NCBI RefSeq assembly: GCF_020382885.2
Contig: NC_058508.1
Span: 6,502,055-6,566,054, forward strand
Direction of reading: 5' to 3'
Source: Scatophagus argus
Taxonomy: Eukaryota; Chordata; Actinopteri; Scatophagidae
Length of the DNA stretch: 64,000 nucleotides
In this document: piece by piece, positions 9,001 through 56,739 of the stretch
Position numbering within the stretch: position 1 is the stretch's first letter
Layout: every line of letters begins with the position of its first letter
Notes under the pieces: generated by a model
Told to the model about the DNA's origin: nothing
Databases searched by the model: none
The model's input: the letters and a program-made list of their open reading frames with translations, nothing else
Made by a program: the position numbers and the translations under genes

Positions 9001-11202
9001 TCTGTGGTCCTTTTACATCTCTTTGTAGTCATTTTGCTTCCCCTTACGGTCATTTTGTGCCTCTTTGTAATAATTTTGCATCTCTTTGTGGTCATTTTAT
9101 GTCTCTTCGTGGTTGTTTGTGTATCTCTTTTTTGGCATTATGGGTCTCTTTACTAATTTCAGGCTCTCATTCTGGTCCAGGGGCTTCAGCTATCCAAGAT
9201 ACTATCAAGCCAACTTTTTAACTTGTGCCACTCCAGGCCACCTCTCTGGATGGCACAGCTCTGGTTTTATGGACAAATTTGTAAGTTGTGCACCTCCAGA
9301 TGATAGGAATGTGAAAGCTGCTGCCGTCAACATAAACACCTCTTGACAAAAGCACTGCGACCTTGCGTGCAAAGTCCTGGGAAACTGATTTTGTCTTACT
9401 GTGTTGAAGCCTTCTGCCAATGAAGGAAATCAACTACTATCCCATAACCACACCTCTCATTCTCTTCTCTCAATGACCGAATGCAGGGAGGAGAAATCCA
9501 GACAGATCATTAGCACCAGCCTCTCTGCATCCCCACTGCCAGACCATATGGACCCACTGTTCAATTGAAACAACTCCTCCCCTGGTCTTCCTCTTTTTTA
9601 CTTAGGTGTCAGGCCACTTTCCCCTTTGGAAGACATGCTCAGTCTGGCTTTTCTGTGGTTTTATCTGATGACAACACTCACACAAAAAGCGAGATGGTGA
9701 AAGAGGGGCCTCCCACTGACAGTGAGATGGATGCCACAAGTGACAACCTTTTGTTTTAGTAAAATGCACCGAGATGCTGGCTTTGCTGAGGCAAAAGGTG
9801 GAGGCCAAGGGGAACAACTTGTTCACTTGTTCCGTTTGGTTGAGCACACTATGGCAATGTCAGAACTTGTTACTTTTCCAGGTTTGTTTTGCTGTAGCTC
9901 GGGTGGGCTTGAGCTGTTGATATAAGCCCCCCACCCCCGACTCTGTTGAAAATAAGCATCACAGCAAATACACTCACTGCTAGAAAGAAAACTCAGATCT
10001 GGCTTCAAATTACCACAAGCTTTGTGCTCCTTTCTGAATAGTTTACTGGCTCAAAAGTAGCAGTTTATATTCTACGTGCCAAAAATGTCAATAAAACCGC
10101 CTTAATCACCCTTCTAATCTGTAATAGCACCTGCTTATGGAAACACAACACGCCCCTGCAGTCTATCTCAGCAGCTGCAATGTTTCCTTCCTATTTAAAC
10201 GCTACTACAGTTGGAAACACAGGTCAAAACGCAATTACGCATTCAGACAGGCGTACTTTGTTTGTCGAAATGACTTCCTGCCTTTTCTTTTCTCCTGGAT
10301 GTTGATAAAAATCAGGGATCAACAAAGTGCACACATTTGTTACAGAGCAAAATATGCAACCTCTGAAACATGGGAAGCAACACTTAAATTCTTTAATTTT
10401 ATCTTGGAAGAGAGTCACCATATTTAGTATGAACAATGTTTATTATCACTCACCTAAATTGTGTGCATTTATAAGACGTTAAACAAGTCGATATTTTTTT
10501 TTTATAAATATAATATTAATTTTCATTACAAAACTGAATCACTGAATCCAACAGTTTGATTGAACTATCTGCAGTTTATTTAGGATTAAACTGTAGTGAA
10601 AGTATTCACATGCAGAGAATGTAAATACATGTCTTTTTTTCCTGTGCTTGTATCAGCAGTGGTTTGATTTGTTTAGGACCTATAAAACACTGGAATAATA
10701 CCAGTAAGGAGACTGTTGAATTTTAGAATAAACTCATCAATTTTATCAGTTTTGTTTAAATGTTAAATTTACTGAATTCGTGTTTTGTTTTTCATACTCC
10801 GGAAGGTCCTCTCCTCTTTTAGCTCGTGGGATTTCAGCTCGAGGCCTTCTTCTCTCTCTCTCTGCCTTCACTGCGACTTATTTAGCCTCAACCAAATGAC
10901 TTATTATCTAATTATTATCTTATTATCTAATTATCTAAGGTCAAATCGGCACAGGTTAATTTGTGCGCGTAGCATGAACTTTCTGCATTTCATTCCCAGT
11001 AAGAAAAATAGTTCATATGAAATTCACATCAACGAATAAACATTAGGCTGGTGCGTCATTTTTGTGCGTAACGGCAAGGCAGAGCGATCACCAGAAATTT
11101 CTTATTTTAATGGCACATTTTAGATGAATGTAATAATATCAGTAAAACAAAAAAAAATCTAAAATAATTAAACAATGATGGACAAAAGCTCGGGTGACTT
11201 AC
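1..11202 (-). other. netrin-1-type gene, first coding intron (partial), no other gene seen
   Basis: This stretch lies downstream, on the minus strand, of the splice donor that closes the netrin coding exon, so it is the 5' part of a long intron whose acceptor is outside the window. I searched both strands for netrin laminin-EGF or NTR exons and found none. All reading frames here are short and have no recognisable domain. It contains a TTTGTGG-rich tandem repeat near 8.96-9.14 kb and ordinary AT-rich DNA. Long first introns are usual for netrin-1 genes (family knowledge). Confidence 0.7.
8960..9145 (+). repeat. tandem repeat, about 26-bp unit of the type CATCTCTTTGTGGTCATTTT
   Basis: Six to seven imperfect copies of a unit containing tctctttgtggtcatttt follow one another. 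This makes overlapping reading frames rich in Leu, Phe, Val and Cys that are not genes. The motif is a common teleost repeat. It lies within the netrin intron. Confidence 0.75.
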
Positions 11203-12217
11203 CCACACACTCGTTGGCTTCTCTGGCCGTGGCGCGCTGCCAAGGTCGGTCATAGTGGAAAGGTTTGCACCTGTCGCACTCTGGTCCCGCCGTGTTGTGT
11301 TTGCACTCACAAACCAGATTCCCTTCTCTGTCCTTGACGCATTTTGAAGCGTGTCCGTTGCACTTGCAGCGTCCTCCGACCTGCAGGTCCGACACGGCGT
11401 AAAAGTAAGAGTCTCGGGCAAGCTCCGAGTCGTCCTCGTTCTCGTCTCCGAAAGTGTGAAGCCGACTGAAGATCACCTTGATGTCGGTGGCCGTCACCCA
11501 GTCCTGCAACACTGGGGAATTGTCGAAGTCGTGCGCCGACGGTCTGCCGTCCAGGGTGCTGAAGGCGATGAGTCCACCTGTCAGAGGGTGCATGTCCGTG
11601 TGGGAGTCCGTGCAGATGGCTTCTTGTTCGTTCTGCTTGGTGATTGCCGCCTTGTTCTGCCTGTTGTACATTTTCTTGCACTGAGTGGAATAAAACTGAA
11701 ACGGTACCCACGATTTGCCGTAGTCCATGGACTTGTAGATTGCCATCGATTCGGGTCTGGGTGAGCAAAACTGCAGGCTCACGTAGGTGACCTCAAACTT
11801 TTTACCGAGCGACAATGTGAGGGTGACGTTCTGCGGGTACTGCACGTAGTTTTCAGACTGCCAGCAGGTGAGGTTGTGAGGGTTGTTGAGATCTGTTAAA
11901 TACGCAGGTGGATGGGACTTCTTGGGGTCCCCGGCGTCGCACGTGTGACAGTCCCTCGTCCTCTCCTCTCCCTTCTCGGTCACCACGCAGTACCTGGCGG
12001 CGGGGTTGCCACAGGTGCTGGATACGCGCACGTCCTTACCGAATGCGGAGTTGACGAAGTCGGGGATGCATCTCCGAGGGTTCCCGTTCTCATCATAGCA
12101 CGGGTCTGGAGGGGAAGACTGAGCAGCAAACATGCTGAGCCCGTATCCTCCAAAGACCCCCTTGGTCAGCGTAGAAACTGTCACCAAGGTGACCCAAACC
12201 TCCAAAATCTTTTGCAT
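11203..12217 (-). CDS. ntn1: Netrin-1-type axon guidance protein, first coding exon (partial gene)
   Basis: Netrins are secreted laminin-related cues that guide axons through DCC/neogenin and UNC5 receptors. This exon encodes about 338 residues. A signal peptide (about 1-23) is followed by a laminin N-terminal (domain VI) region beginning near the GLSMFA motif, with [20 protein letters not shown], and then the first laminin-EGF repeat ([10 protein letters not shown] onward). The exon ends after ANECV plus one base at a consensus donor (GTAAGT, reading from 11202), phase 1. To my knowledge this is the same place and phase as in mammalian NTN1. N-glycosylation sites are visible at NLT and NVT. 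The start at 12217 is the first in-frame ATG and gives a hydrophobic leader. A minus-strand acceptor (TTTCAG) ends at 12248, so 12218-12247 is likely 5'UTR spliced to an upstream non-coding exon. The other LE repeats and the NTR domain are not in the window. Assignment to netrin-1 rather than another short netrin rests on similarity through the domain VI core and is strong but not absolute. Confidence 0.93.
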
Positions 12218-12699
12218 TGTAATCCGTGCACCGCAGGGACTCTTGCGCTGAAATGTAATGGAGACAAAATCATCAGAATTAATAACACGAGAATGAATTG
12301 TGATAAAGACTAAAGCAAGTCGGGCGTAGAACAGTCACAATAAATGATGCTCTGAAAGATAGCCTTCATGGACATCATGTAACTCATACTAAATGTGAAT
12401 GAAATATTCTTACGAGGCAAAGAAAACTCCACCCAGGACACTATCAATAAACTGCTCTGTCAGAAAGTGTAGCACAACTCCAAAGAATTTGGAAAACAAG
12501 CTATCCCGTTTACGCACGAAAAACTACTGCCATACTACTTCAGTCTCTTCCCCCTCTTTGAAATCCCTAAATAAGAATAAGAAATGGCAAAAGCCCAGTT
12601 GGCTCTGAGTCTCCCTCTGCCTCTGTCTGTCCACTCAGTCACACCTCTGCCCACCTCTGTCTCTGTCTGTCCCATTCCCTCTCTGTTACAATAGAAAAA

Positions 12700-12839: not shown

Positions 12840-15000
12840 GTAAGACAAATATTATGCAGTGAAAATTTGTCATTTCAAAATACATAAAAAAAATGTAGAA
12901 GAACAGAGTTATTTATAGCTTTGGTAACGTGATATCTGCCTCTGACAGATCTTCCTTTTTATTGAAATGATTTCCTTGTTGTCATGTTGCAGGAATTGAT
13001 ACACAATTTTGCTGAATTTGCACATCGAAATGCACTTGAAATAAATTTGTTGCACAGTTTTTTAAGGTAAAATGAATCTGTTCACGGACACTATCATTCA
13101 TTATTTTATTCTCAGACTTCTGAAAGCCCCTTCACAGCTATGAAGACATGATACACAGATTTCATGGACTCAGCAGTCATTTTACAGGAAGCATAGAGGA
13201 GGCTTCTTTACTTTGGTGTAAAATTAGTGGATTGTCCCTTTAGCTCAACATGACTGAACCATACAGAGCTCTCAGGTGAAGCATGTGAGACTGGAGTTTT
13301 AAATCCAGAGGTAAAAGTATTTTGTCAATGTTGCTCAGCAGAAAAGACCTTAATGAACACAAAGATGTAACTGCATCTAAAAAGAAAAGTGTGGGCTCTG
13401 TGTAATAAACTCACTACCTTCCTGTGAAGGTAGTGACTTGATGCTATGGTGATGCTGCTAAAAATAATAATAATAATAATATATAAAATTAAATGCAAGA
13501 ATAATGACATTTGTGGATTTTATGGGTTGATCTGATATAAAAACATTTCTTGTGTCCATAGATGTGTCAATTAAAATGATTTTATTTCATTTTAATGGAC
13601 GAATATATGAAGACTTAATACTAAAAATGGTGTGTTCAGTTTATCATTAAGTCTCACTGAAATGTTTTATCAACTGATCTGTTTTATGGTACTTTACATT
13701 GTTTGTTACTCTGTTTAACGTCCCATATAGCAAAGTTTATTACCATCAATATCTGTCTTATCATATTGGTGCATATGGACTGAAATAAAGGTTGTGTCAT
13801 TGGCAGAGAAGGACACGAGGACATTGATAATGGCTTTAAGGTTTTGTTGCACACTTGGACACAAAGAGGGACTTCCAGGCGTACATGAGTTCTAAGGAAT
13901 CTCTTTACTCCTTCGCTCACAGTAAAATACAGCAACAGATGCATGTGAGTGCAGCGTTTCTGTATGCTGCAGTCTGCTCAGGTACACTGAGGGGATGCAA
14001 GCACACTCCCATGTTGTGACCCAAAGGACCCCTGAGCTGCCCACGAAGCACCAGTGTGAGCATCACTCCATTTAACCTTGCTTACCTCGCCCAAATAATC
14101 TAGCTGTGAGTTCAAATACACATACTACATCCCAGTGAGCATAATAACAACACAAACAAATAAACACAAGGATCAATGTCCAAAACATGTTGTATATCGC
14201 TATGGTCCCCACAGTTTTTACCTTAAAAGGCAATAACCTAACATTCTATGACTGTGCCTTGAATTAGAATGGAATCACAGAATGGAATATTTTATAGAAC
14301 ATTACTGAGCAGAATTTGGCTCAGTTCACCTGCAGCCTTCGCCGTGTGAGCTACACATTTAGTGGGACCAAACAATAATCCAAACCGGAGCAAGAGTTTG
14401 AAGCCAGTGAACTGAACCATCAGTGAATACAAAACATCTTAAGTAAGTAGTTAGACAGTTAGCTTTTGAACTAATCCTTACTGTCATTCTGTTATATGCA
14501 GGAACAGATAAATCTAACACTTAAGGCCAGCTGGGTGCTCTTGGCTCTCAGATAACTGGCACAGATAACATGATGAGTGATTTATGCTTCTTTTAGTTAT
14601 TCAAAGCTTTTCTAAGTAAACTCTGAATGTGTAAAGAAACGTGTAACTTGTAAGCAGAGCAACAGGACTTTGGTAAAGTTAGGCTGTTGAATGCCTGTAG
14701 AGGAGTACAAAAGTATAATTTATGCCACTGAAATGTGGTGGAATAAAAAGATAAAGTAGCATAAAATGGAAATAATCAAGTAGCTCAAGTACTTACTGTA
14801 AGAGCACTTGGTATTGTCAAAAGTAAAAGTACTCTTATGAATGTACTGATGAGGAGTTAAATCCTTAACATCACAGCTTCTTAATCCATCATTTTGTATG
14901 TTAACTTTTTATCTGATAATAAACTGCAGCAGTCACATAAATATAGTGAATCATACAATAAACACATCAATGAGTATAATATGACATATAATATATGTTA
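12840..15000. other. intergenic or upstream-intron DNA without a recognisable gene
   Basis: No coding exon could be supported on either strand. An 11-bp perfect hairpin lies at 13411-13436. A fragment of a common teleost repeat (GTAGCATAAAATGGAAATAATCAAGTA type) lies at about 14695-14860. A minus-strand donor-like GTAAGC near 14083-14090 is a possible netrin 5'UTR exon end, but no supporting exon could be defined. Confidence 0.6.
14695..14860 (+). repeat. teleost non-autonomous repeat fragment (ATGTGGTGGAATAAAAAG... type)
   Basis: The run gaaatgtggtggaataaaaa, tagcataaaatggaaataat, caagtactta is the well-known high-copy teleost repeat in which AAGTACTTGAGTAAA-like words recur. A related fragment in the opposite sense is at about 38619-38700. 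Recognised from memory of fish repeats. The exact class (MITE or SINE) is not determined here. Confidence 0.5.
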
Positions 15001-15103
15001 GTCCACGTAAAAAAATGTCTCAAATTCAGCTTCCTATCAACGTGTGTGACAGGAGTCCAGTACCCAACAGGGACAACAAACAGCACAGAAACCAGCCAGC
15101 AAA

Positions 15104-17377
15104 ATGGATCTGTTACCTGAGCAGGTTGACAGCACCATGACAGATAACGACTGGGAAGACTTGCTGTCTATTCTCAAGTCGACTGGAGTAGATTTAGTGG
15201 ATGAAGCGCCGAATACTCTACCACCATCTACTTCACCCCAACCTTCAACTTCACATGCTCCTGTCAATGCTGAGACGGAGCTCCAGGAGGCTGACTGTGG
15301 TGTAGCAGACAATTCCTGGGAAGACTTGCTGTCTATTCTCAAGTCGGCTGGAGTAGATTTAGTGGATGAAGCGCCGAATACTCTACCACCATCTACTTCA
15401 CCCCAACCTTCAACTTCACATGCTCCTCTCAATGCTGAGACGGAGCTCCAGGAGGCTGACTGTGGTGTAGCAGACAATTCCTGGGAAGACTTGCTGTCTA
15501 TTCTCAAGTCTGCTGGAGTTGATTTAGTGGATGAAGCACCTCACACTCCACCTTCAACTTCACCTCCTCCTGTCAATGCTGAGAAGAGGCACAATACCTA
15601 CCCTCAACACCCACCCTCAGCACAACAATCATCCTCCAAAACGGATCCTCAAGAGTCTGACAATAACGTTGCAGATCAGATCTGGGGAGAGTTGCACTCC
15701 ATTCTCAAGTCAGATGGATTTGATCTTCTGGATGACGCACCCGACCTGCTGCCTCTTTCACCTTCATTTTCACCTTCACCTCCTCCTCCTGTCCATGCTG
15801 AGCTGGAGGAGGGAGGATATGGTGGCTGTAGCTCCCTGGGAGCAGCTCCTCAGAGGGTCGAGCAGCAAAGTCAATTGTTGACAGCTCCCCCCATGAACTA
15901 TGCACCACGTCAAGAAGACATGCAGCCAGGTCACCTGCACAGTCAGGCAGGTGCTTCCAGTCAGGGACAGGTAGGATACTCAGCATAGGCCAGGCACAGG
16001 TATCATTAGGAGTCTATGAGTACCTGTACTGATACACATGCTATCAGTGTTGGATGTTTTATGTCAAAATGAAGCAAGAAACAAATCTGAATGTGAAGTC
16101 ACTTTGTTGTCCCTTCACATGCGTTGAATGTGATTAATTGTAAAACACGACTGTGTGGCTATTTTGATAACTGATTCATCTTTTCATTTATTTTCTTCTG
16201 GCAAATTTGCTTTTGTGTTGACAACCAAATAACTTTGGGATTTGAGGTGACCACAGCTTTTTGCTCTGTGGTCACCTGACCTTCACATGACGACACACTC
16301 CTGACCTCTGTGACCTTCAACAGAAACATATCGTAGCTCTATACCTCAGTGCCGTAGTTCCTCCAGATGTGTCTGACAGCAGCTCATTCAAAGTTATTAG
16401 AATTTATGAGGAGGGAACATCCTGACACCTAGGGGACAGATGATGCCACTGCAGCATGTCAAATCACCTGTTCTGTGTCTGTTTGTGTCTCCAGCAACAC
16501 AGCATACCAGTGACGGGGTTCCTTGAAGGAAACCAGAGCCTGCGTTATGTAGGACTGTGGTAAGTAACACACACATGAGTGAAAACATGAGTGAACACAG
16601 CTACTGAGTTTCAGTTTTAATCGTCACACACACTCGACCTACCACCTGAAGTGTGTATCCGTCTCTGTTTATGTGTGTAGGAATGGACAGCCGCTGTATG
16701 AGATTTGTGCTCCTGCTGTCGTTGCTGCTCCTCCAGCAGACGCGTCCAAATCAAAGTAAGTTTGCTCTGGACAGTTTTGGTCACGAATGTAATTTTCATA
16801 ATTCTCATGAGTTGTGATTGTGGTCAACATGAATAAGTCAGACACAAATTCAAATTAGGATCTTCTTTTATTTAGTTTCAATCAGCTGTTGTTTGATTTC
16901 AGGTGTCTGTTGTTTGTCCACTGATGTTCTGCATGAATATGATTATAATCAGTGTCTCTTAATGTGTTTTAGTGGACAGTACAGCAGAGACAAGGTTCAA
17001 TCTTACACACATCTTGTGTTTCCACTCTTGTAACATCACCTCCTCTCTCTCTGTTTTTGTCCAATAGAAAGAGAAAGCGTCAAAACCAGCAGGAGGGCGG
17101 TCAGTATATAAAGAAGCCCCCAAACGCCTTCATGCTGTTCCTGAATGAGCAAAGGCCACACGTTGAGGCCGAAATCAGAAGCCGAGGGAATGCGGTTGTA
17201 AACACGGTCCTGGGACAGAAGGTAAGTGTTTTGGTTCTGTACGTTTGAGACACTCAGTGTCTCACACCTCTAACTCCAAATCTGATATTTAGCTTTTCAT
17301 TTACTGTTTTATGATCAGAGAACAAACTGAACTCTAAAGGATTTTGCAGCATTGTGTGACTGAAATGTCCTGCGCGC

Positions 17378-17419
<42 letters not shown>

Positions 17420-18845
17420 ATGCTATCTAACGTCTTGTTGTTGTCCGCCCACAGTGGAAGTCACTGTCACAGGAACAGCAGGCCACATATTACGAACAGG
17501 CCGACAGAGAAAGACGGCTCCACGCCCAGCAGCACCCGGACTGGTCGTCCAGTCACAACTATGTAAGTACACCCTGCTCACACACAGCTCACGACACACA
17601 CACTACACAAGAGCTGACGACACACACTCACTGCAAAGAGTTTTTCTCAGCTGATGTCAAATGCAAAGTGTGTCGCGTTTGTTTTTGTGCAGGGCAAAAA
17701 GAGGAAGAGAGAAAGAAGAAGGAAGCCCACCTGTGCTGAAGGTAAGAGCATATTTCTGTGAATCACAGCGTGTTTTCATGTGAAATGTCATGAAAACTAG
17801 ATGATGTGTGGACTTTTAAGGATTAATTCTGCATTTTGGAAAGCTATTGACCGTTTAACATCGATACAAGAGACTGAGGAGCAGAAACCAACTCACTCAC
17901 ACTTTGAAGATATGAAGTTCAGTGTTGGTCTACATTTTAGTAGATTTAATATAAATGACACAAACAGCTTCCCTGCAGTGAACGACGACACTGACATAAA
18001 GTCTTTAACTGAAGACTGAACTGACGATTTTTACAAAGCAAATAAGAAATCAGAATCATCAACACAAACTGTGACTTTTTCAAATTAAATATCATTTGAT
18101 TCAGTGTTGGTATTAAAATGTTGTTTAACGCAGGTTTCAGAAACACCATCTTGTTTTGAAAGGTTTAGAAAACTGATCTGTGTTTCTGTCTGATTGTGTT
18201 GCTGCATCTGCATCCAAACCTGAAGATGAAACACAGCAGGCCAAGAAAGTGTGTGTGACTCCAGTGCAGACAGCAGTGACGGAGGCCTTCGTCCCACAGA
18301 CAGATGTGTTTGAGCCTCACGCACACGCAGGTGCGTTCGAGCCTCACGCATACGCAGGTGTGCTCGAGCCTCACACACAAACAGGTGTGTTCGAGCCTCA
18401 CAGACACACAGATGTGTCCGAGCCTCACAGACACACAGATGTGTCCGAGCCTCACAGACACACAGATGTGTTCGGGCCTCACGTACACACAGATGTGTTC
18501 GAGCCTCACAGACACACAGATGTGTTCGCGCCTCACGTACACGCAGATGTGTTCGAGCCTCACAGACACACAGATGTGTTCGAGCCTCACGTACACACAG
18601 ATGTGTTCGCGCCTCACGTACACGCAGATGTGTTAGAGCCCAGCATTCAGTATGTGACGTTGTCCCTGCCTCCTGACTGGATGTTCCAGCAACAGCTTCC
18701 AGTTCATTCGCCTCCACCAACTCACACACAGACGTCTATCAGCCAGTCACAGACAAGCTACCCAGCCAATGACGGAGCAGCTCGAGCCCCTTCCAATCAC
18801 TGCACAGCCTCAGCTGCACATGGACAGACTCAGTGTCCTCCGTAG
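15104..18845 (+). CDS. Divergent TCF/LEF-like HMG-box transcription factor with N-terminal WEDLLSILKS repeats
   Basis: Seven coding exons join in phase: 15104-15970, 16495-16559, 16681-16755, 17068-17221, 17455-17562, 17693-17741 and 18226-18845 (1938 nt, 645 aa). The ATG has a good context (AAAATGG). Residues 1-289 carry four modules with a D/N-x-W-x-(D/E)-L-x-S-I-L-K-S core (Trp 17, 72, 127, 194), the first three spaced exactly 55 residues, separated by Pro/Ser-rich linkers. Residues about 350-419 form one HMG box (YIKKPPNAFMLFLNEQRPHV, then WKSLSQEQQATYYEQADRER), followed by a basic tail GKKRKRERRRK. The box is split just before WKS and just before GKK, the same places as in TCF7/LEF1 genes as I know them. 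I see no beta-catenin-binding N-terminus and no C-clamp. Residues 440-645 contain twelve 9-residue EPHxHTDVF-type repeats. The last splice (GAAG|ATGAA) is the least certain. The role is presumably sequence-specific DNA binding in the nucleus; the repeats may be acidic/amphipathic activation motifs (inference). Specific ortholog not recognised. Confidence 0.82.
15145..15715 (+). repeat. 165-bp coding tandem repeat (three near-identical units plus one diverged unit)
   Basis: The tgggaagacttgctgtctat core begins at 15152, 15317 and 15482, so the period is 165 bp (55 codons), with near-identical sequence through the linker. A fourth, diverged unit (tggggagagttgcactccat) begins at 15683. The high identity of the first three units suggests recent duplication or gene-conversion-like homogenisation inside the exon. 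Confidence 0.9.
17376..17419 (+). repeat. (TG)n microsatellite just upstream of an HMG-box exon acceptor
   Basis: A run of about 20 TG/GT dinucleotides lies in the intron that splits the HMG box, ending about 35 bp before the acceptor at 17454. Confidence 0.9.
18303..18636 (+). repeat. 27-bp coding minisatellite in the last exon of the HMG-box gene
   Basis: About twelve units of the type GATGTGTTCGAGCCTCACAG plus ACACACA encode the nonapeptide (D/G)VFEPHxHT. Units alternate Arg/Val at the variable position and Glu/Ala/Gly before PH. The array leaves open frames on the opposite strand and in other frames. These are by-products of a repeat without stop codons and are not separate genes. Confidence 0.92.
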
Positions 18846-18967
18846 CTTCTTTATTATTATTATTTACTTTTTTGTTTCTTATCGTGTTCATTTCTAATTT
18901 CACTCAGTCTGTGCAAACTTGCAGCCTTTAACTGTTTTTTGGTTTTGCAATTTTGCGGAATCTGATC

Positions 18968-18973
18968 AATAAA
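18968..18973 (+). terminator. polyadenylation signal AATAAA for the HMG-box gene
   Basis: A canonical AATAAA lies 123 bp after the TAG stop at 18843-18845, and no competing signal lies between. This implies a short 3'UTR. Confidence 0.7.
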
Positions 18974-19432
18974 ATGTAGTAACCTAATTAATGATGATGT
19001 ATTATCATTGGCTAAGATGAGACCTTAGTGAGCCTCAGGGTGTGAACTGATAAGCAACACTGCAGTATACAAAGCAGTGACAATAAGCCCCACCTTCAGC
19101 AGCTGAAACATTAATGTGATCATGACATTAAGGCTCATTCTGCATAATGTGCATTTTGGCTTTGATGTCTTTAGTAGATTTGGATTTCTGATGGAGATGG
19201 ACTGATGGAGGTCTGACCTGTGAAGACAAATACACTCAGTTTGGCTAGTTTGGTTACCTTCATATGATGTGGTCATAATGTGGTCCAACTTCTGCCTGCT
19301 GGCTGAATACATATTAATTTTTGCTCAGACTGTACCCCAGTCAAGATAAGTCAAGATAAACAGCATAAGCTCCACGTTCCCTCACTATTGTTGGAGACAT
19401 GTCAGAAAACTTCACTGCGGTAGCCTGCCTCA

Positions 19433-19451
19433 ACCGGCAGGGGGCGCTATG
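19433..19451 (+). promoter_or_regulatory. CTCF-like motif (CCGGCAGGGGGCGCTATG)
   Basis: CCGGCAGGGGGCGCTATG agrees closely with the vertebrate CTCF core CCASYAGRKGGCRC. It lies between the HMG-box gene and the phafin/osteocalcin genes, where an insulator would be plausible. Motif-only call. Such a core can also sit inside dispersed repeats. Confidence 0.4.
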
Positions 19452-21699
19452 AGTATATGTGTAACCCTTTTCAAACAAGCCCAGTTGGCCCCAGAAAAGG
19501 CACATGTGAGCTGTGTCAGCTGAAACAGATAACCAGCTGAAAGTAATGGATTCTCTTTCTTCTTTGTCTAATTCTGTTTAGCACCAGCATCTGTTGAACA
19601 CTGAGAGAGCACAGGCCATACTGGTTTATGTTTTGAAACATTTATCTTCATGGATAAGAAGGAACCAGCCCAAGGCCAGATTTCTATATAAAAACCGTGC
19701 AATGCAAGTTACTTCATAAGGAAACTTATTCCCCAACAATAAATAATTTCTTATTAAATAACAGAAAATATGTATTTAATCCAAGTCCACCTTTGAAATA
19801 ATTTGAAATAATAATAATTTGTGCTCCCTGTATATCCTGATCAGCAGACATACAACCACGTCCCATTCTGAGTGAAAACAATCAATGTGAAAGTGAAAGG
19901 GCCAATTTGGAAAAGCTGGTGGTGCTACACCTAACAGCTGCTACTTTGGCACAATAGTAAAATCCTTTAGTCCAGGGTTGAAATTCCTCCCAGTACACCA
20001 GTAGTGTGAAGGGATCTGCTCCTTTGGTTGTTTCTACATGCTGACAGAATCCACAGGATCTCACTGAAAATAAACTTTTGGGACTTTTGATGTTCGACTT
20101 ACAACATTTGGAAGATAGAAAGCAGCTCAGGATGAGTCCAGCCCCATCACAGCTGTCTGACTTTTTTCTCAGACATAATAGTCCCAGTTAAAACTGAATC
20201 AAAGATATTAAATGTTTTCTGTACCATTAAGTTTATTATCACAGGGAATTTCCACTTTTGCTGCTTAAATGCAAAGTCTCGTTGGCATTACTGAGTGCAC
20301 TGAAGTGCACCATATCCACCATGTCCCCATAGTTTTTGAAAACAAAACACAGCAACAGAGACACAATTTCGTGTACCATCAGAGTGGACATTTCTGGGAG
20401 AAGCTTCTCACTGACTGTAAAGCCTTCAGACAAAGATGTGAGTGTCAGCACAGTTCTGCTGTACTTGCTATACAAATACAAAAGTGCTTCATTTGTCTGC
20501 ATTTGTGCAGCATCAGCGATAGTGCTCCTGTGGTTCCAACACACCAGGTAAGGTTAACCAACAGCTGTAAATGCACTCTGTATTCAAAGTTCTCTGACAG
20601 GAAAATATGCCACATTTCCTTGTTGTTGCTGTCCCTTGTATGAAAAGCGACAAACAGGTTTGACACTCCAACAAATGACTCACCCATGATGAGAAAGCAT
20701 TTGGGTTTGTTCCAGTTTTTACCAAGTGTTTATGAAAGCCCATTAAGCCTCTTGGAAAATGTCGTGTCATGTGAAATGTTTATATCAGCCTATTGGATCG
20801 AATCAAAATCAGAAACAGCAATTGAGGGCAGTTCAAAATGAACTGGTGTTTGCTGTTATGGACTTTTTTATCCTGAGGTACATAACAAGGAAGATGTAGA
20901 AATCTCATTTTCTTCTGCTGACATCAGCTTTAACAGACAACCTCACACATTTTTATTGTCAAACAACCCACACCCTCCTTGTTTGTACTGGCAAAGCCTC
21001 CGTCAACAGAAACCACCTAAACATCTGCCGATCCCTCTGCTCACACACCAACAGGCTGCCAGTCCGAAGTAGACAGAAACACACTTTGTCACATTTAAAA
21101 GGTCACAGGAAAGACCCAGCTGTTCACAACATCGTAGCCATTTTGCTGTCCTCCATGTTTACTGTCCAGTTGCTGACTGCTCTCATCTCTGTGGGCCTCT
21201 TGGTTTGGTAACCCGTACATGAACGACCTGCCTGTAAGCATTTAAAGTCCATGTAAGGCAAATTCCAAGATTCCAAGACGCATCAAACATGTCAATAGTT
21301 GGTGAAAACGTGTGAAAACAATGTGAACTATGTCATAACTGAATTATTCAATTAGGCAGTTTTTCACAATTTTGGACTTTCGCTCATAACAAGTAGAGTT
21401 TATTAGCATCGGCAGCTCAGACATAACACACAGTTACTACAGAACAATCAGGCTAAAAATGATTAAAATAAGGATGTCATAACAATAAGTTAAGTTTAAT
21501 GATTCCTTAAAATTCATTTTCATTATTAAATCACAATATTTTTTTCATTTATATGCTGTATTTCCCATCATTCTGAACACATTGGAGCTCCACATAAATA
21601 AACTCAGCAGTGACTTTTTAATAAGAAAAATGTGTGCATCAAAATCATGACAGAGAAAGTAAGATTGGTGCATCCAACGTGACTCTCAACACAGAAGCA

Positions 21700-21724
21700 T
21701 CACAACACACACACACACACACAC
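21700..21724 (+). repeat. (CA)n microsatellite
   Basis: A run of about 11-12 uninterrupted CA units. Confidence 0.9.
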
Positions 21725-21961
21725 ATCTGTTTTGTGAGTGCTTTGTTATTCACTGATCATTTGAAAGCAAAATGTAAACTACTTCACAGCAAACAAGTAC
21801 AGAATAAAAGCTCAGCAATGACAGCAAAGATTTTTTCACTCGATTTCCAACATGCTTCTATTGTGTCCAACTGTCTTTGTTTGAGTCTTAATGCTGCAGT
21901 TTTATTTCACTAAGGCTGTTGATTCACTGGTTTTGAGTTAACATTAAGTGTGTTAATGTGG

Positions 21962-23074
21962 TTAATGGCTGCTCCAAGTGTCCAGCCAGCTGCTCTGAGC
22001 GTAGCATTGAATCATTCCCACTCCCTCGTCTTCATCACTGGATGCTGCCACATCTTCGCCCTCTAAGCTATTCATTCCAGCACTGTCCCCCCTCAGTCGA
22101 GATATCTCATCTTCTTCTTTGTTCTGAGTGTGGCAGAGACTGCAGACCCTCAGTCTCTTAGTGGGATGAATGTGGTTAATCACTGCTCGCTGTTTGGAGC
22201 ATGAATTGCACACCAGAAAGCCACATTTTCTGCAATGGTGTCGACGTTTGGTTGCTGTGAACTTGTTGAAGCAGCGCATGCATCTGAAGGAGGCCCGGTC
22301 TGGGATCCAGGTAACAGCAAAGCTGGAACCACGTTGGCAGCTGCCGTCCTGCAGCAGGCCTGACCGGCACTCTTTGATGTGCTCAATCCAGGCCTGCTTC
22401 CCCTCGTGTGAAGGCGCGGAAACGACTTTCCTGGCGTACGGATCAGCCATTGGTTCCTCACATCCAGACTGTCCTCCATGTCCTCCAGCTCAATGTCCTC
22501 TGAAATGACAGAGAAGAACACATACTGATTATGTAATATGGACTGTCAAAATGCTTGTCCACCAAGAAATCAGAGTTTGGCAGTTATGGCTCACAGTGAA
22601 CTGAGCTTACTGTAATACAAATCATCAAATACGTTCTGAGCTTCTCTTCAGACATTCAGCAGGACTAATAATTTTGCTTTTTGGCTGAGGGTTGAAACTC
22701 CCGTAGCTGAATCAGTGTAATGGGAGTGCAACTAATTCCATGTTTTTCAAAAAGCACAAACATTTAACAGAAAGAAAAATCCTGTTTTTGTTCTACAGAT
22801 AAAAAAAATGTTTAACTGCGAGAAGTTTCGGTCATCTGTGGACATTTTTGTTCAGAATATATTTTATTTTACTTCTTTTCTATTTGAGTGGATTAATAGC
22901 CATAAGATGTATTAAATCATGTAAATAATACAAAGCTTTAAAAAAGACAACACCAAAGCAGTGACAAACGCTTATCTTCTGGTTTTTGTGAAAGCGGCCG
23001 TTCAGAATGACGCTGCCGTACACAAGAACATCGCTGAAGAGGAAGAAATTCTTAGGCTGGGGTTTCCGACGACA
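21962..23074 (-). pseudogene. Phafin-1-like (PLEKHF1) PH-FYVE protein, frameshifted and incomplete
   Basis: Phafins are endosomal PH-FYVE proteins that bind PI3P. Two blocks are visible. The upstream block, 23074 down to 22976, reads CRRKPQPKNFFLFSDVLVYG and continues to NQK, a PH-domain strand region. The downstream block, 22499 down to 21962, opens after a good acceptor (TGTCATTTCAG) with DIELEDMEDSLDVRNQWLIR. It ends the PH domain, then carries a FYVE zinc finger with C-x2-C pairs and the RRHHCRKCG ligand motif, and an acidic tail. The frame breaks at about 22420: the frame ending ...TPGKSF and the frame starting VVSAPSHEGKQAW are offset, as if seven bases were missing. No convincing donor follows NQK (ATAAGC stands where GTAAGC would be expected), and the N-terminus before CRRK is not found. 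The known mammalian genes have one coding exon. A real gene with a sequencing error is the alternative. No gene symbol is given because of the damage. Confidence 0.6.
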
Positions 23075-26332: not shown

Positions 26333-26911
26333 TCAAGTGATGTATTCGACGCGGTGTTCACAGCTCTGGACTCTGGCATCGATAGGTCTCTCATTGGCTA
26401 GGTTGGCAGCTAGCTTGAGCACAGTCAGGAATTCGCTGAAGGTAAAGCCTTCTCCTCTAACAAGACTCTGGAGAGCTCTTTTGGTGATCTTGACAGCAGC
26501 TTTGGCTGCACCATTTCGGTGAGGTGAATCGGCTGGAAGGATTCTCCATGTCCAATAGGTCCCATTTCTGGCGGCATATTCTTCAAGTGACACTTTGTTC
26601 TGTTGACTCAGATAGGTGTACATATCTTCCAGTACAGGTTTTGCCCCACTAAAATTTGTACCTGGATCGAACCAGACTTTCTGGGGATGGCCTCGGATAG
26701 AAGTGAACCTCTGGTAAGCGAGTAGGAAGCTCTCGGTCGATAGTGTGTTTGCCAGTTCGACATGGATGGCTCGACTTGACATACAGCAGAAAAGCACGCC
26801 CCATACTTTCATGCTCACTCTCCTCTTGACATCATCCCTCTTCTTCGAAGAGGTCTGGATGCGTGCCTCCAATGGTCTTGCCAAGTGGACCATCCCAGAG
26901 TACCAAGTCAC
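26333..26911 (-). pseudogene. BEL/Pao integrase core fragment fused to a protease tail
   Basis: The frame starts in protease-linker sequence (ARPLEARIQTSSKK) and passes at about 26845 into an integrase core beginning DDVKRRVSMKVWGVLFCCMS. The first catalytic region (IHVEL), the WFDPGTNF segment with an Asp, and the PHRNGAAKAAVK segment can be seen. In the last, the position normally holding the catalytic Glu of the DDE triad is Lys, so this copy should be inactive even where its frame is open. It is truncated at the C-terminus (ends at EYIT). Confidence 0.75.
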
Positions 26912-27365
26912 CGACAGAACAGACTTTCTGGGGTACTAATTGGCCTTCTTTGTGGCTGATTAGGAGTTGTATTTCTCTGGGTCTTGTGAGGTCTTTGAGG
27001 GGAACATCTGGGAAAATCTTCTGTAACTTAGTGGCTGGAACATGTCTGTGAACTTCTGCTATTTCATCAAGTCCATAGCAAATCAGCTGATGAGCTTTGA
27101 GAGTCCCTCTTTGAGTGTTGACATGTATCTTGAGAAGGTAGCGTTTAGTTGCAACAGACACCTTCACCCCCAGGACACCATGGACCACCAGCGTCACATC
27201 TTCACTTCTAAGGTTCAATTTTCTTGCAGCTCTTTGTGTGATGTAGTTTGTGTCTGATGCCAGATCAATGAGGGTCCTGATCCTCTGTTCATCATTCGCT
27301 GTAACATCAAGGAGCATCAGGATAACTGATGTAGTTCTTAAGTCTGGCTGCAAAGACTGCTCCAC
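26832..27365 (-). pseudogene. BEL/Pao aspartic protease region, third copy
   Basis: The frame contains TLIDLASDTNYITQRAARKL, a retropepsin-like active-site region in which the usual D-S/T-G triplet is replaced by D-L-A-S-D, then HVNTQRGTLKAHQLICYGLD. It is nearly identical to the copies at 28721-29188 and 31581-31907. Its upstream neighbour (minus strand) is an RNase H start and its downstream neighbour is the integrase core, neither of which is the normal neighbour of a protease. It is a rearrangement product. Confidence 0.7.
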
Positions 27366-27483
27366 ACATCTCTGCCTTCACAGGGTCACCCTTGCTGTTG
27401 AGAGGAGTCAGTTTGCCCTTGGACTCGACCAGCCTTACGACGACACCATGGCTGCAGCTCCAGCGTAGATACAGCACAGCACC

Positions 27484-28721
27484 TTATGCGTGCTCACTGC
27501 CATCAGAAAAGGTGATACCACTTGGTCCTGCACATGGATCTGGTGGAGTCAGGGGTCGGATGAATCTGAGTTGGCTCAGGACAGCATACTCTTCAAGGAG
27601 TTTTATGGCATCTTCTCTGAGCTCTTTGGACAAGGCAGCATCCCAGGTGTCTCTTCCGTAGTAAATTACTTTTGCTTCTTGAAAAGCTCTTAGGAGCAGG
27701 ATGGCTCCCTTCTGCTTTGCAGGAGCCACAAGGCCGAGCGAATCATAGAGACCAGAGACTTGGCTTAACAGTTCCCTTCTAGTGAGTGGGTCTGGGGTTT
27801 GGTGTCTTACTTCTTCTCTCAGTAAGTTCTGACCAAGGCGCATTTTCTTTTTTTTCTTAGAGAAGTTCACAGCAACCACGACATGTAGCTTGTCATCTTC
27901 AATGGTGTAGGGCAGGATCACTGTCTTCATCGACTGTGTTTCTACCACTTGGCTCTTTCCTCCCACTTTGATCTGAGTAGACCCAATCCTCCAGCTTTAA
28001 GGATCGAGTTTCAGATGGTCGAGGTTGTTGTGTGAGGTCAGGATGTCATCAACACAGACATCTTCCTCCAGCACATGTTTCTTTTCTTTGAAGTGTCTAA
28101 ATGGAGGCAAGTTGTCGGTCTCCCGCATGGCTTCTTGGGCTATGCAACCAGCTGGTTTGTCTCCGATATTCACTCTTGTTATGGCGAAAGCTTCTATTTC
28201 AGCACCGGCCCGGTCCAGCTCTGCAGAGCTTCTTTGGACAGCTTCACTGCAGCTTTGTGATTAACCATTTCGTGGACTTGTGAAGCGTAGGCCATCCTCC
28301 ACTCTGGTTCCTTCGCCAGCTGTTGTTCCGTTCTGAGAAATGTGGCTCCTACTGCTCTCCTGTTGGGTAGAGATGCTGGATCTTCTCTCCACGGATACTT
28401 GGCGTGCCAGTGTGGTTCAGGGCTATGGTGATCTCCGTTCACATATGTCAAGCCATCTCTTTCTTCAGCCAGTGTCATTTCTTTCCCTCCAGGTTGGCAA
28501 TTCCCACAGCGACATCCTCCACATTTTGGCTCACAGGCGACTCCACTGCTTTCCCACTCCCAGAACTTCAGAAAGTGTCTGCTGCTAGCAGCTGTATTGG
28601 ACTGGACGCCGGGATGGTCAGGAGGCTGGGAGGAGACTGGATCTTTACAGGTGAGTTCACTGTTCTTGACTGCTGCAGTTCTCATGGATCTTGTGAAATG
28701 TGTTTTTGACATATGGGCCAT
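27484..28721 (-). pseudogene. BEL/Pao reverse transcriptase block, second copy
   Basis: Reading down the minus strand, 28721-28194 carries the Cys-rich region CGGCRCGNCQPGGKEMTLAEE upstream of RT. About 28045-28053 encodes the VDD catalytic motif (CVDDILTSHNNL). 27966-27484 continues through QNLLREEVRHQTPDPLTRRE into the connection with RNase H. Several stops and frame shifts interrupt it. The copy at 30357-31581 is nearly identical. Confidence 0.75.
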
Positions 28722-29188
28722 TAAGCTAACTTCTTCGAAGAGGTCTGGATGCGTGCCTCCAATGGTCTTGCCAAGCGTTCACCGACAGAACGGACTTTCT
28801 GGGGTACTAATTGGCCTTCTTTGTGGCTGATTAGGAGTTGTATTTCTATGGGTCTTGTGAGGTCTTTGAGGGGAACATCTGGGAAAATCTTCTGTAACTT
28901 AGTGGCTGGAACATGTCTGTGAACTTCTGCTATTTCATCAAGTCCATAGCAAATCAGCTGATGAGCTTTGAGAGTTCCTCTTTGAGTGTTGACATGTATC
29001 TTGAGAAGGTAGCGTTTAGTTGCAACAGACACCTTCACCCCCAGGACACCATGGACCACCAGCGTCACATCTTCTCTTCTAAGGTTCAACTTTCTTGCAG
29101 CTCTTTGTGTGATGTAGTGTGTGTCTGATGCCAGATCAATGAGGGTCCCAATCCTCTGTCCATCATTCGCTGTAACATCAAGGAGCAT
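28721..29188 (-). pseudogene. BEL/Pao protease region, second copy
   Basis: This is the same protease module as 26832-27365, with the variant TLIDLASDTHYITQRAARKL. It lies directly after an integrase zinc-binding region ending in CRWKRPS. The join lies around 29215-29240, where the two joined sequences share the minus-strand word GCTGGAAGAG. Confidence 0.7.
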
Positions 29189-29222
29189 CAGGATGACTGG
29201 GTACTCGTTTAACCCGTTCTAA

Positions 29223-30350
29223 TTAAGAAGGCCTCTTCCAGCGACAGGTTCTTGCCTTTGACTTTTTGCAGACCACACACTTATCAACGACTCTTTGGGC
29301 AATAATCCTTCCTTTGATGACCCATGCTTTCTTTCGCATCCGCAGAAAAGTTCCTGTCACTCTGTCGTGTCCTTCACTGTGTGCTGTTCTGGTTAGAAGG
29401 GTAGAGATCCAGGCCTGCAAAGGTAGCAGGGGAATGGCTCTGTAGCCCTTTCTGAAGGTCTGAAACCAACCACCACACATCAGGAGCCCAGTAGTTCCAT
29501 CTCTGTAGACAACCAGTCTATCAGTTGTTGTAGTTGGAAAGTGTACGTCCTCTTGTGCTGCCAGGCATAGATCTCGGAACACATCCTCTCTTTCATTGAC
29601 TGTAATGACAGCAGATGAAGGTACTGCCTCCCACTTTTCTTTATCTCCAATCTTGGCATGCAGGAACTTTTTTGCTGCTCTCCAAATCCATGCTATCGTC
29701 CCGACCAGCTGCCTTAGACTGCTGAAGCGCCTTTCGTCCACCAGCTTCTGGACTGCTGCTACTGCAGGAGGTCTTCTACACTTGGACTCCGCCTTCTGTA
29801 TCATGACTGGGTCTTGCTCTTTCAGTTGTCTTTGGGTGAATACTGCAACAAATGTTTTCTTTAGTATTTTTTTGATACTGTCTCTTGCTTGTGAAGCGAC
29901 ATCTTTGGCGGATTTCTTTGGCCACTCACTCTCAGAGAGTCTAAGAAACTTTGGACCCAACTGCCACTCAGACTCCTCAGTTAAGTCATCAGGACCGGCC
30001 CCTCTGGTGACAATATCCGCGATGTTTACCGGCCTTGGGATCCACCACCAATCTCGAACGTCATTGCTCTTCTGGATCTCGCCAACTCGGTTCTCGAAAA
30101 AGGTCTGGTAGCCGTAACGCTCTCGCTGTATGGCGCCTAAGACGGTCTGACTGTCGATGAGATGATACCACCTCTCAACTTCGATTTGGCAGTGTTTCTG
30201 GAAATAGTTCTTAAGTCTGGCTGCAAAGACTGCTCCACACATCTCTGCCTTCACAGGGTCACCCTTGCTGTTGAGAGGAGTCAGTTTGGCCTCGGACTCG
30301 ACCAGCCTTATGACGACACCATGGCTGCAGCTCCAGCGTAGATACAGCAC
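29223..30350 (-). pseudogene. BEL/Pao RNase H and integrase N-terminal region
   Basis: A 375-codon open frame covers an RNase H-like part (KAEMCGAVFAARLKNYFQKH, then DSQTVLGAIQRE). A conserved BEL stretch (DVRDWWWIPRPVNIADIVTR) follows, then an integrase zinc-binding segment with H-x-E-GHDRVTGT and C-x2-C (CVVCKKSK). It is the longest intact frame of the element and the only single-copy part of the duplicated array. Confidence 0.8.
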
Positions 30351-30356
30351 AGCACC

Positions 30357-31581
30357 TTATGCATGCTCACTGCCATCAGAAAAGGTGATACCACTTGGTC
30401 CTGCACATGGATCTGGTGGAGTCAGGGGTCGGATGAATCTGAGTTGGCTCAGGACAGCATACTCTTCAAGGAGTTTTATGGCATCTTCTCTGAGCTCTTT
30501 GGACAAGGCTGCATCCCAGGTGTCTCTTCCATAGTAAATTACTTTTGCTTCTTGAAAAGCTCTTAGGAGCAGGATGGCTCCCTTCTGCTTTGCAGGAGCC
30601 ACAAGACCGAGCAGATCATAGAGACCAGAGACTTGGCTTAATAGTTCCCTTCTAGTGAGTGGGTCTGGGGTTTGGTGTCTTACTTCTTCTCTCAGTAAGT
30701 TCTGACCAAGGCGCATTTTCTTTTTTTTCTTAGAAAAGTTCACAGCAACCATGACATGTAGCTTGTCATCTTCAGTGGTGTAGGGCAGGATCACTGTCTT
30801 CTTGGACTCTGTGTTTCTACCACTTGGCTCTTTCCTCCCACTTTGATTTGAGTAGACCCAATCCTCCAGCTTTAAGGATCGAGTTTCAGATGGTCGAGGT
30901 TGTTGTGTGAGGTCAGGATGTCATCAACACAGACATCTTCCTCCAGCACATGTTTCTTTTCTTTGAAGTGTCTAAATGGAGGCAAGTTGTCGGTCTCCCG
31001 CATGGCTTCTTGGGCTATGCAACCAGCTGGTTTGTCTCCGATATTCACTCTTGTTATGGCGAAAGCTTCTATTTCAGCACCGGCCCGGTCCAGCTCTGCA
31101 GAGCTTCTTTGGACAGCTTCACTGCAGCTTTGCGATTAACCATTTCGTGGACTTGTGAAGCGTAGGCCATCCTCCACTCTGGTTCCTTCGCCAGCTGTTC
31201 CGTTCTGAGAAATGTGGCTCCTACTGCTCTCCTGTTGGGTAGAGATGCTGGATCTTCTCTCCACAGATACTTGGCGTGCAAGTGTGGTTCAGGGCTATGG
31301 TGATCTCCGTTCACATATGTCAAGCCATCTCTTTCTTCAGCCAGTGTCATTTCTTTCCCTCCAGGTTGGCAATTCCCACAGCGACATCCTCCACATTTTG
31401 GCTCACAGGCGACTCCACTGCTTTCCCACTCCCAGAACTTCAGAAAGTGTCTGCTGCTAGCAGCTGTATTGGGATGGTCGGGAGGCTGGGAGGAGACTGG
31501 ATCTTTACAGGTGAGTTCACTGTTCTTGACTGCTGCAGTTCTCATGGATCTTGTGAAATGTGTTTTTGACATATGGGCCAT
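30357..31581 (-). pseudogene. BEL/Pao reverse transcriptase block, first copy
   Basis: Same content as the block at 27484-28721: Cys-rich upstream region 31581-31069, VDD motif encoded at 30920-30928, downstream region 30794-30357. It differs from the other copy at scattered positions and small indels, including loss of a CCGGGATGG-type stretch near 31471. Confidence 0.75.
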
Positions 31582-31907
31582 TAAGCTAACTTCTTCGAAG
31601 AGGTCTGGATGCGTGCCTCCAATGGTCTTGCCAAGCGTTCACCGACAGAACGGACTTTCTGGGGTACTAATTGGCCTTCTTTGTGGCTGATTAGGAGTTG
31701 TATTTCTATGGGTCTTGTGAGGTCTTTGAGGGGAACATCTGGGAAAATCTTCTGTAACTTAGCGGCTGGAACATGTCTATGAACTTCTGCTATTTCATCA
31801 AGTCCATAGCAAATCAGCTGATGAGACTCTATGTGTGATGTAGTTTGTGTCTGATGCCAGATCAATGAGGGTCCCGATCCTCTGTCCATCATTCGCTGTA
31901 ACATCAA
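31581..31907 (-). pseudogene. BEL/Pao protease region, first copy with internal deletion
   Basis: Compared with the other two protease copies, about 140 bp is missing around 31826, joining HQLICYG-coding sequence directly to the SDT-region sequence in another frame. The offset to the second copy drops from about 2,870 to 2,726 bp across this point. Confidence 0.7.
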
Positions 31908-31944
31908 GGAGCATCAGGATGACTGGGTACTTGTTTAAGCCGTT

Positions 31945-32421
31945 CTAATCAAGAAGGGCTCTTCCAGCTGCAGTGGAGTTGTATGCCCTGGATGAGATGT
32001 TGCAGAAGGTGTTTCGACACTGCTGTGCCAGCTCAAGTGGAAGTTTGGAGAGGAACTCTTCTTGGGCATCAGTGTATCTTTTGCCCTCAGCTTTCACTGG
32101 ACTAGATTTGGGTGTTGTTTGGGACTTGGGTCTGGCAGCTAGACAGAAGATAGTGGTGTTGGTCTGTGCACTCTTGATTCCCACACAGGTAGGTGGTCTT
32201 TCTGCAGTAGCCGCCGTCATGGTCTTCAAGGCACCTCTTGCAGGCACCCAGTTGTTGTGCTGCGGCTGTTGTGCTCTAAACCTTCTGCAGAAATACAGTC
32301 TCTTTCTGTGTTTTGGGTCACCACAAATAATGTAACCTGTTGTGTCACTGCTGGACTTGGTTGTCTTTGTTCTGGCGTACTTTAAGAACTTGGATTTCTC
32401 CTTGGGGGGATTCGATGACAT
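31945..32421 (-). pseudogene. BEL/Pao gag C-terminal / zinc-knuckle-like fragment
   Basis: The frame contains CGDPKHRKRLYFCRRFRAQQ and a later stretch KRYTDAQEEFLSKLPLELAQ. The Cys/His spacing resembles a degraded gag knuckle region. It lies between the gag-like frame and the first protease copy, its expected place. Confidence 0.55.
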
Positions 32422-32860
32422 CTCTTAGTTGATCTAATTGTTCATATATGGATTCTTGTGATTTCAGGAACATGATGAGCTTGTCAAAGCGGTTCTGGTG
32501 GTTAACAGCGTTTCCCCTCATCTGCAGTATAGGTGAGCCAGTCCTTTATCAGAGTTTCTGGAAGCTTGCTCTTGATGGATTTAGTCACTAGTGGGTTCTT
32601 TATGGTGTCTGCACTTCCCAGTTCACTTAGATCATAAAGGGCCTTTTCCACAGTTTGGATGAGTTCTATGATTCGTCTTGGCTGGCCGTTCCTGACTGGT
32701 GGAATTGCTTGTAGCTCTTCGATGATCTCGAGAGCGATTGTGGCTTGGTTCCCGAACCGGCTGTCCAGAACTTAAAAGATCTCGTCCGATGAGCTGTACG
32801 TAGACAAGCGAAGATCTTTGGCCACCCTCTCGTCAAGGCTATCGAGCAATTGGAATTTCT

Positions 32861-33634
32861 TTACTTCTTTTGAGCCAGTCGGTTCACCTTGCTTCTGCAG
32901 AGCCTCCTATTCTTTCCTCCATCTGTAGTAGTCTCGCCAGCAAACTTTGGCAGGGCTGTGACTTGCAGCTTTATCGCTGCTACTGGAGCTAAGCCGCAAA
33001 CTGAGATGGGTTCTTGTTCAGCGTGCTGCTTTATAATTGCTGCTTTGATTAAGGAAGCCTTCCATGACACCAGCTTTGGAAGGTACGCCTCGAGCCTTCT
33101 TACACAGCGGTCAAAGTCTTTTTGCTCGGCTGGTGGAGTCCAGCGGTTCCAGTTGTGGTGCGCTTCTTTTGCCTTGTGCACCAACTTCTCTAAGTGGGTC
33201 AGCATAAACTCATATGCCTCCAGAGTTGCATCCTGCTGAATGGAGGAGACGTTCTCACACTCAGCCTCCGCAACTTGTAGAGCCAGGGACAGTTCTTTAT
33301 CTCCATATGTGGCCCACAGTGTCTCTCGGATCAGGAGTTTAACTTCTTTAGTCTTTTGCTCACATTCTTTCTCTGTCTTCTCTATGTTGGCTCTCTGTAG
33401 GTTGCTCAGCTCCTCTGCAGTAGCTGCCTTGCACTCCATGTAAGCGGCCTCCACATCTTCATTTGCCTCCATAGCTCTGGAGCTTTCTGCTGTAAGTTTC
33501 TTGAAGTTCTCTTGTAACTCCTCCATAGACATCTCCATGTGGGTTCTCGTAATGCTATTGGCAAGACGGGAAAAAAGTCTCTTAACTGTGGTCCTCTCTA
33601 CTTTCAGTTCCTCAAGTGACTTCGACTCAGCCAT
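32861..33634 (-). pseudogene. BEL/Pao gag-like protein (5' part)
   Basis: This 257-codon frame begins MAESKSLEELKVERTTVKRL and is strongly helical and charged, with repeated Glu/Lys heptad-like stretches and a WTPPAEQKDF segment. It resembles the N-terminal gag region of fish BEL elements. The frame ends prematurely at 32861 and gag continues in other frames towards 32421. ATG-proximal open start at 33634. Confidence 0.7.
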
Positions 33635-33829
33635 TTTGTCCTCTTCGACTGACTGACGGCAGGCTTTATCCTCCAGGCCTCAGGTGGAGCCCTCTCCCTC
33701 TCGGTTGTGGCCACAAATGGAGTCTTCGCTGGTCACTGGTCACGGCCGGTTTTTCACTGTCAAGTTTCTTTACGTCATCATGGCTTCCCACACTTGAAAA
33801 AGGAAGGACTTGACCAGACTTCAGGATTT

Positions 33830-56479: not shown

Positions 56480-56715
56480 ATGAGCATTATGCTTTCAATC
56501 TGTGGCTAGTATTCCAGGGAGATTTTTGCTAGACAAACAAGAGCATGACAATATCAGGTTGGTTCACCACTTAGGTCCAGACTGGAATATCTCTACATTT
56601 ACTAGATGGATTGCCATGAAATTCTGTACAGACTTTCATACTACCCACAGGATGCATCCTGTTGACTTTGGCAGCCTTTTGATTTTTCCTCTAACGCCAC
56701 CAGCAGGTTGATATT
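56480..56715 (+). repeat. teleost non-autonomous repeat fragment directly before the Tc1 remnant
   Basis: The stretch actagatggattgccatgaa, attctgtacagactttcata and cctctaacgccaccagcagg is a familiar fish repeat. A related fragment (tactattgatccatcctgta) lies at about 62215-62310. Confidence 0.5.
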
Positions 56716-56739
56716 TTTTACTTTGGTGTTTCTCCTTTC

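Follow-up and report, generated by a model that had tools for sequence, protein, structure and literature searches.

Gene structure of the TCF-like locus

Does a gene with a TCF/LEF-type HMG box encode an otherwise completely different protein, or is it a TCF gene whose other parts have been rebuilt? This question is raised by a seven-exon gene of Scatophagus argus, located on the + strand at positions 15104-18845 of the window (the whole stretch of 64,000 nucleotides that was analysed, C16 6502055-6566054), which is part of contig C16 in a genome of 570.7 Mb and 48 contigs. In the exon model built from the window sequence, 6/6 introns were GT-AG and the product of this TCF-like gene had 645 aa, which bears out the seven-exon, 645-aa model proposed in an earlier sequence-only reading. 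The features are as follows; numerals of TCF exons (I-XI) are our own numbering.

15104..15970, + strand: exon 1, with the start codon, four acidic modules and P/S/T-rich linkers; it stands in place of the TCF N-terminus
15151..15537, + strand: 165-bp tandem repeat (modules 1-3), 2.3 copies, 98% matches
16495..16559, + strand: exon 2, 65 nt, ending in ...VGLW, phase 2
16681..16755, + strand: exon 3, 75 nt, NGQPLYEI..., with phases (2, 2), which are those of the TCF exon starting xGQxxY
17068..17221, + strand: exon 4, first half of the HMG box (TCF exon IX)
17455..17562, + strand: exon 5, second half of the HMG box (TCF exon X)
17693..17741, + strand: exon 6, basic tail GKKRKRERRRK (TCF exon XI), 49 nt, phase 1 at its end
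18226..18845, + strand: exon 7, C-terminus with a His-rich 27-bp-repeat tail and the stop codon
18296..18640, + strand: 27-bp tandem repeat within exon 7, 12.8 copies, in frame
18968..18973, + strand: AATAAA, possible polyadenylation signal

The counterpart of exon 2 among the TCF exons is uncertain; compared with the TCF exon ending in LGWL, its 3' phase agrees, whereas its 5' phase differs (0 versus 1).

The HMG box and its introns are of the TCF/LEF type

Pfam HMG_box matched residues 350-418 of the TCF-like protein (E 1.2e-15), and the best solved relative of the protein was LEF1 (2lef, E 5.9e-26), with SRY/HMGB1 at 5.4e-14. A Pfam HMG search of the genome returned at least 66 matches; the window gene was not among the matches listed, and the counts are lower bounds. 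TCF/LEF boxes were found at at least six loci, namely L015 (C14), L016 (C2), L017 (C21), L018 (C4), L024 (C23), and L044 (C20). By their exons I and by the residue marks given in the available part of PMC9303524, L015 was read as tcf7, L016 as lef1, L017 as tcf7l2, and L018 and L044 as two tcf7l1 genes, for which the letters 'a' and 'b' in the tree rows are provisional. Five TCF/LEF genes are described in each of four teleosts (PMC9303524, available in part). L024 (C23:15234482-15234883) is an extra, diverged TCF/LEF-type HMG box (QLVKKPLNAF...) that follows long simple-repeat sequence, and it does not clearly correspond to one of the five TCF/LEF genes usual in teleosts.

The box of the TCF-like gene is interrupted by two phase 0 introns, one following the pair of basic residues that precedes W and the other following NY. 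The same two phase 0 breaks were present in 5/5 TCF/LEF loci inspected (L015, L016, L017, L018, and L024), in agreement, by position and by phase, with the earlier statement that the box introns are placed as in TCF/LEF genes; L044 also has an acceptor before W and a donor after NY. In the SOX loci with a visible donor (L014, L021, and L028), the box is broken elsewhere. Further intron matches, beyond those noted earlier, were found before the xGQPxY exon, at the start of the HMG exon, and at the basic-tail exon. The junctions of the xGQPxY exon are all in phase 2 (GLW|NGQPLYEI in the TCF-like gene, MPQ|QGQHMYSI in L018, and LGWL|PGQPMYPI in L044), the HMG exon of the TCF-like gene begins in phase 2, as does, by our reading, that of the TCF/LEF loci, and the basic-tail exon has 49 nt and ends in phase 1 in both the TCF-like gene and lef1, while that of L044 was read as 46 nt.

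An HMG-box tree had been named beforehand as the refutation test for TCF/LEF membership. In the box-only tree (19 rows, HMGB rows dropped), the TCF-like gene stayed inside the TCF/LEF clade with support of 100/94, beside L044 at 85/80, so that with LEF1 as its best solved relative the box is upheld as TCF/LEF-like. Its branch was very long (1.58), and its identity to any TCF box in this genome was at most 51%; the HMG box is described as highly conserved across deuterostomes (PMC9303524, available in part). The description of the product as a completely different protein is not supported, because exons 3 to 6 are a diverged TCF backbone in which the corepressor region is partly present, and the start of exon 7 probably also belongs to this backbone. 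Judged by its sequence, the TCF-like gene is a remodelled TCF.

Relationship to the TCF7L1 subfamily

A second tree was built from 14 rows, in which an upstream exon and the tail were added to the box and exons that had not been fetched were entered as gaps. The TCF-like gene fell in the TCF7L1 clade (92/92), and its pairing with L044, the tcf7l1 gene on C20, received 84/82, which is not decisive. In the same tree, lef1 and tcf7 were rejected as sisters (P 0.008 and P 0.007, respectively), but L018 (P 0.18), L024 (P 0.12), and tcf7l2 (P 0.11) were not rejected in that position.

The exons were then compared with those of the C20 tcf7l1 gene (L044, L052). Exon 3 was identical to its 75-nt exon at 39/75 bases (shuffle mean 19.2; 0/20000 shuffles as good), and exon 5 was identical to its counterpart at 74/108 bases. 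The xGQPxY exon has 75 nt in both the TCF-like gene and L044, 84 nt in L018, and is longer in tcf7l2, and a search with the exon-3 peptide placed the L044 exon first among the loci compared (E 0.46). In addition to this exon length, the two genes share the intron phases around the xGQPxY, HMG, and basic-tail exons, whereas the C20 gene, unlike the TCF-like gene, has a full beta-catenin-binding exon as well as exons V, VI, and VIII. Box position 43 of the TCF-like gene is S, which is a TCF7L1 mark (PMC9303524, available in part). The gene differs from TCF7L1 in having A, not S, at box position 64, a novel exon 1, and the repeat tail. Taken together, the TCF-like gene was probably derived from TCF7L1. 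As a separate observation, the HMG box of the C20 gene itself (about 712300-722728) is noticeably diverged for a TCF/LEF gene, yet its beta-catenin-binding exon is full.

TCF elements kept, diverged, or missing

The beta-catenin-binding N-terminus had been reported as not visible, and this was confirmed: CTNNB1_binding was not among the eight Pfam families listed for the TCF-like protein (E up to 1), and no such exon was found in the window. The same Pfam family matched exon I of the C20 tcf7l1 gene at E 2.8e-23 (L052). TCF exon queries (I, III, IV, V, VI, and three versions of VIII) against the window gave a best E of 0.019, in a simple-repeat stretch; 6/8 of these queries came from the C20 gene, and each of those matched the exon from which it had been taken at E 2e-7 or lower. 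A beta-catenin-binding exon in the window was rejected on the exon I query. The trees and this window search support the earlier proposal that the gene is a TCF/LEF paralog that evolves fast, has a TCF-type box, and lacks a recognisable beta-catenin-binding exon.

The groucho-binding region, which had also been reported as not visible, gave a divided result. The exon VIII queries against the window returned nothing convincing, but the xGQPxY exon survives in diverged form at 16681-16755, and we read this exon 3 as a diverged TCF exon VII ('helper' corepressor). The TCF7L1 subfamily is defined by LVPQ, SxxSS, and two CtBP motifs (PMC9303524, available in part), a set that the TCF-like protein does not have: a pattern search of the protein for LVPQ, SxxSS, PxDLS-like, C-clamp, and LxxLL patterns found none. 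The earlier statement that no C-clamp is visible stands as far as the pattern is concerned, but this absence is nothing unusual: according to the available part of PMC9303524, neither TCF7L1 nor LEF1 has a C-clamp. The exon-1 linkers showed a single weak Pfam-level resemblance to TCF exon V (E 0.07-0.09, one-protein search).

Acidic modules of exon 1

The W-x-D/E-L-x-S-I-L-K-S modules of the window copy start at residues 17, 72, 127, and 194, with the consensus ADNSWEDLLSILKSAGVDLVDEAP. They have a net charge of -7 to -9 and 9-10 W/F/Y/L/M per 39 residues (top-ranked windows of the protein). AlphaFold, run on the four-module alignment, predicted a single helix at module residues 7-22, with a mean pLDDT of 66.3 and 84 in the block 11-20. 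The amphipathicity of the helix is modest: for the three stretches examined, 3.7%, 3.6%, and 6.0% of shuffles had a hydrophobic moment as high. A search of the whole genome with the exon-1 protein matched only five copies on C16, described below, and the next match was on C2 at E 0.79.

A match of the protein to Sigma-70 region 1.1 (Pfam PF03979) was rejected. The whole protein scored 27.6 bits, 0 stretches passed alone, and one module alone reached 13.3 bits against a cut-off of 22.5; the whole-protein score exceeds the cut-off because the tandem modules sum weak repeat matches. A PF03979 match on 15104-15970 is thus an annotation trap.

A young five-copy family on C16

A genome search with the HMG query (50 matches) found five copies of the gene within 1 Mb of C16.

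C16 6519120, + strand: window copy
C16 6148378, 6159290, and 6170410, - strand: three copies, ~11 kb apart
C16 7138180, + strand: fifth copy
Window 13138..22400: duplicated stretch that recurs whole or partly at the other C16 copies and includes a FYVE-domain gene; 22400 is the end of the sequence searched, and the true end may lie further

Each of the five copies is divided into seven exons by GT-AG introns and has an open frame, the products being 645, 571, 627, 672, and 590 aa long, and the copies differ mainly in the number of 165-bp modules and 27-bp units. The last residues of copy A differ because its match to the window stops at 18834. The combination of four modules with a His-rich repeat tail, as described earlier, holds for the window gene, but 2/5 copies have three modules. 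Pooled across the copies, the 400 codons outside the repeats gave pS 0.0188 and pN 0.0093; the variable codons comprised 10 with synonymous changes only and 18 others. Neutrality among the copies was not rejected (P 0.09 or 0.16), and 28 changes would by chance introduce no new stop with a probability of 0.31. The TCF-like genes are a young family, and their amplification is a new finding with respect to the earlier reading.

The FYVE-domain gene, at window 21962-22489 on the - strand (Pfam FYVE, E 2.1e-17), was duplicated along with the TCF-like gene on C16; we take it to be PLEKHF-like. Positions 20200-22400 of the window have two full recurrences at 99% and partial ones near 7.13-7.14 Mb.

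Proposed function and alternative explanations

We favour, with modest confidence, the explanation that the five copies make up a young family of factors of TCF/LEF origin, which probably arose from a duplicated tcf7l1 and would activate TCF-like sites without beta-catenin. The protein would enter the nucleus through its basic stretches and would bind and bend the minor groove at TCF/LEF-like sites, for which the NAFM wedge and the basic tail are kept. We assume that these two elements have the structural roles in DNA binding known from LEF1/SRY work. The box may have changed at some of the residues in contact with DNA, KES having become RGN at what are presumably such positions. The tandem modules, with their charge and W/L content, could form a multivalent acidic activation domain, and the outcome would be a beta-catenin-independent switching-on of sites that TCF7L1 would repress. 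Of the steps in this mechanism, activation is the weakest. It is in keeping with the truncation work in PMC8651982, since Tcf7l1 that has lost the Gro/TLE-binding domain together with the C-terminal region acts as an activator of targets, according to the available part of that paper.

In a rather doubtful variant, the protein would be a natural competitor that occupies TCF sites without beta-catenin and dampens Wnt output, its modules and tail being passive or binding something else. It keeps the box and the basic tail and has lost the N-terminal domain, as have the short TCF7/LEF1 forms, which act as dominant negatives (PMC8651982, available in part), but a plain competitor would have no need of an added exon with repeated acidic modules. 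A Wnt-independent binder of TCF-like sites is most likely, with activation favoured over competition. We consider it improbable that the copies are decaying duplicates, that is, a TCF duplicate that was retained, was multiplied along with the surrounding sequence, and now has little or no function. The differences among copies are compatible with neutrality, and the amplification need not concern the TCF-like gene, since a neighbouring gene lies within the duplicated stretch; against this, open frames, splice sites, and in-frame repeats are kept in 5/5 copies, and frame and splice phases have outlasted a divergence of ~1.5 changes per site from other TCFs.

That the modules are multiplied beta-catenin-binding helices, so that Wnt input would be kept in an altered form, is very improbable. 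The two share a loose DL..(V/L)KS likeness and are both acidic, but the protein has no CTNNB1_binding match, and this identity was rejected because the modules, when aligned with C20 tcf7l1 exon I, scored no better than shuffled sequences (1742, 1831, 1822, and 1942 out of 2000 shuffles equalled or exceeded the score). Convergence of a SOX or other HMG-family gene on TCF, to which the low identity of the box to any TCF would lend itself, is hardly credible and was rejected on tree and gene structure: the box lies within the TCF/LEF clade, forcing it with SOX gave an AU P of 0.037 in the box-only tree, and the introns have TCF positions and phases.

A Wnt-independent activating family, as favoured above, can be compared with known systems. 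The short TCF7/LEF1 forms likewise have a TCF box without beta-catenin input, but they are alternative products of full genes (PMC9303524, available in part), whereas the TCF-like gene occupies a locus of its own and has a new N-terminus. Lamprey TCFc is also a divergent TCF, and neither exon I nor exon II was found for it; it differs in having a C-clamp and far fewer box changes, and the available part of the same paper mentions no acidic modules in it. No gene of such a build was found in the literature, among the matches listed. Present in five copies, with no Wnt receiver detected and a box that shares at most 51% identity with its relatives, a gene of TCF descent such as this would offer a natural test of what the box does when uncoupled from beta-catenin, and of the pace at which a central signalling factor can change its wiring. 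More tentatively, we envisage that in a fish lineage a duplicate of the Wnt repressor TCF7L1 may have become a family of Wnt-independent activators, its receiver domain replaced by repeated acidic activation helices before the gene multiplied to five copies on a single chromosome; the context may have been germline or sex-linked.

Other features of the window

An ORF at 56695-57216 (+ strand) resembles a Tc1-type transposase by eye and had no Pfam match at E up to 0.001. Pao-type retroelement ORFs occupy 26333-33679 (- strand); that at 29226-30356 contains Peptidase_A17 (E 1.9e-10) and an integrase zinc-binding domain, and 26336-26935 had no Pfam match. On the other side of the TCF-like gene, the ORF at 11168-12334 (- strand) carries Laminin_N and laminin-EGF domains (E 9e-87) and is presumably netrin-1-like.
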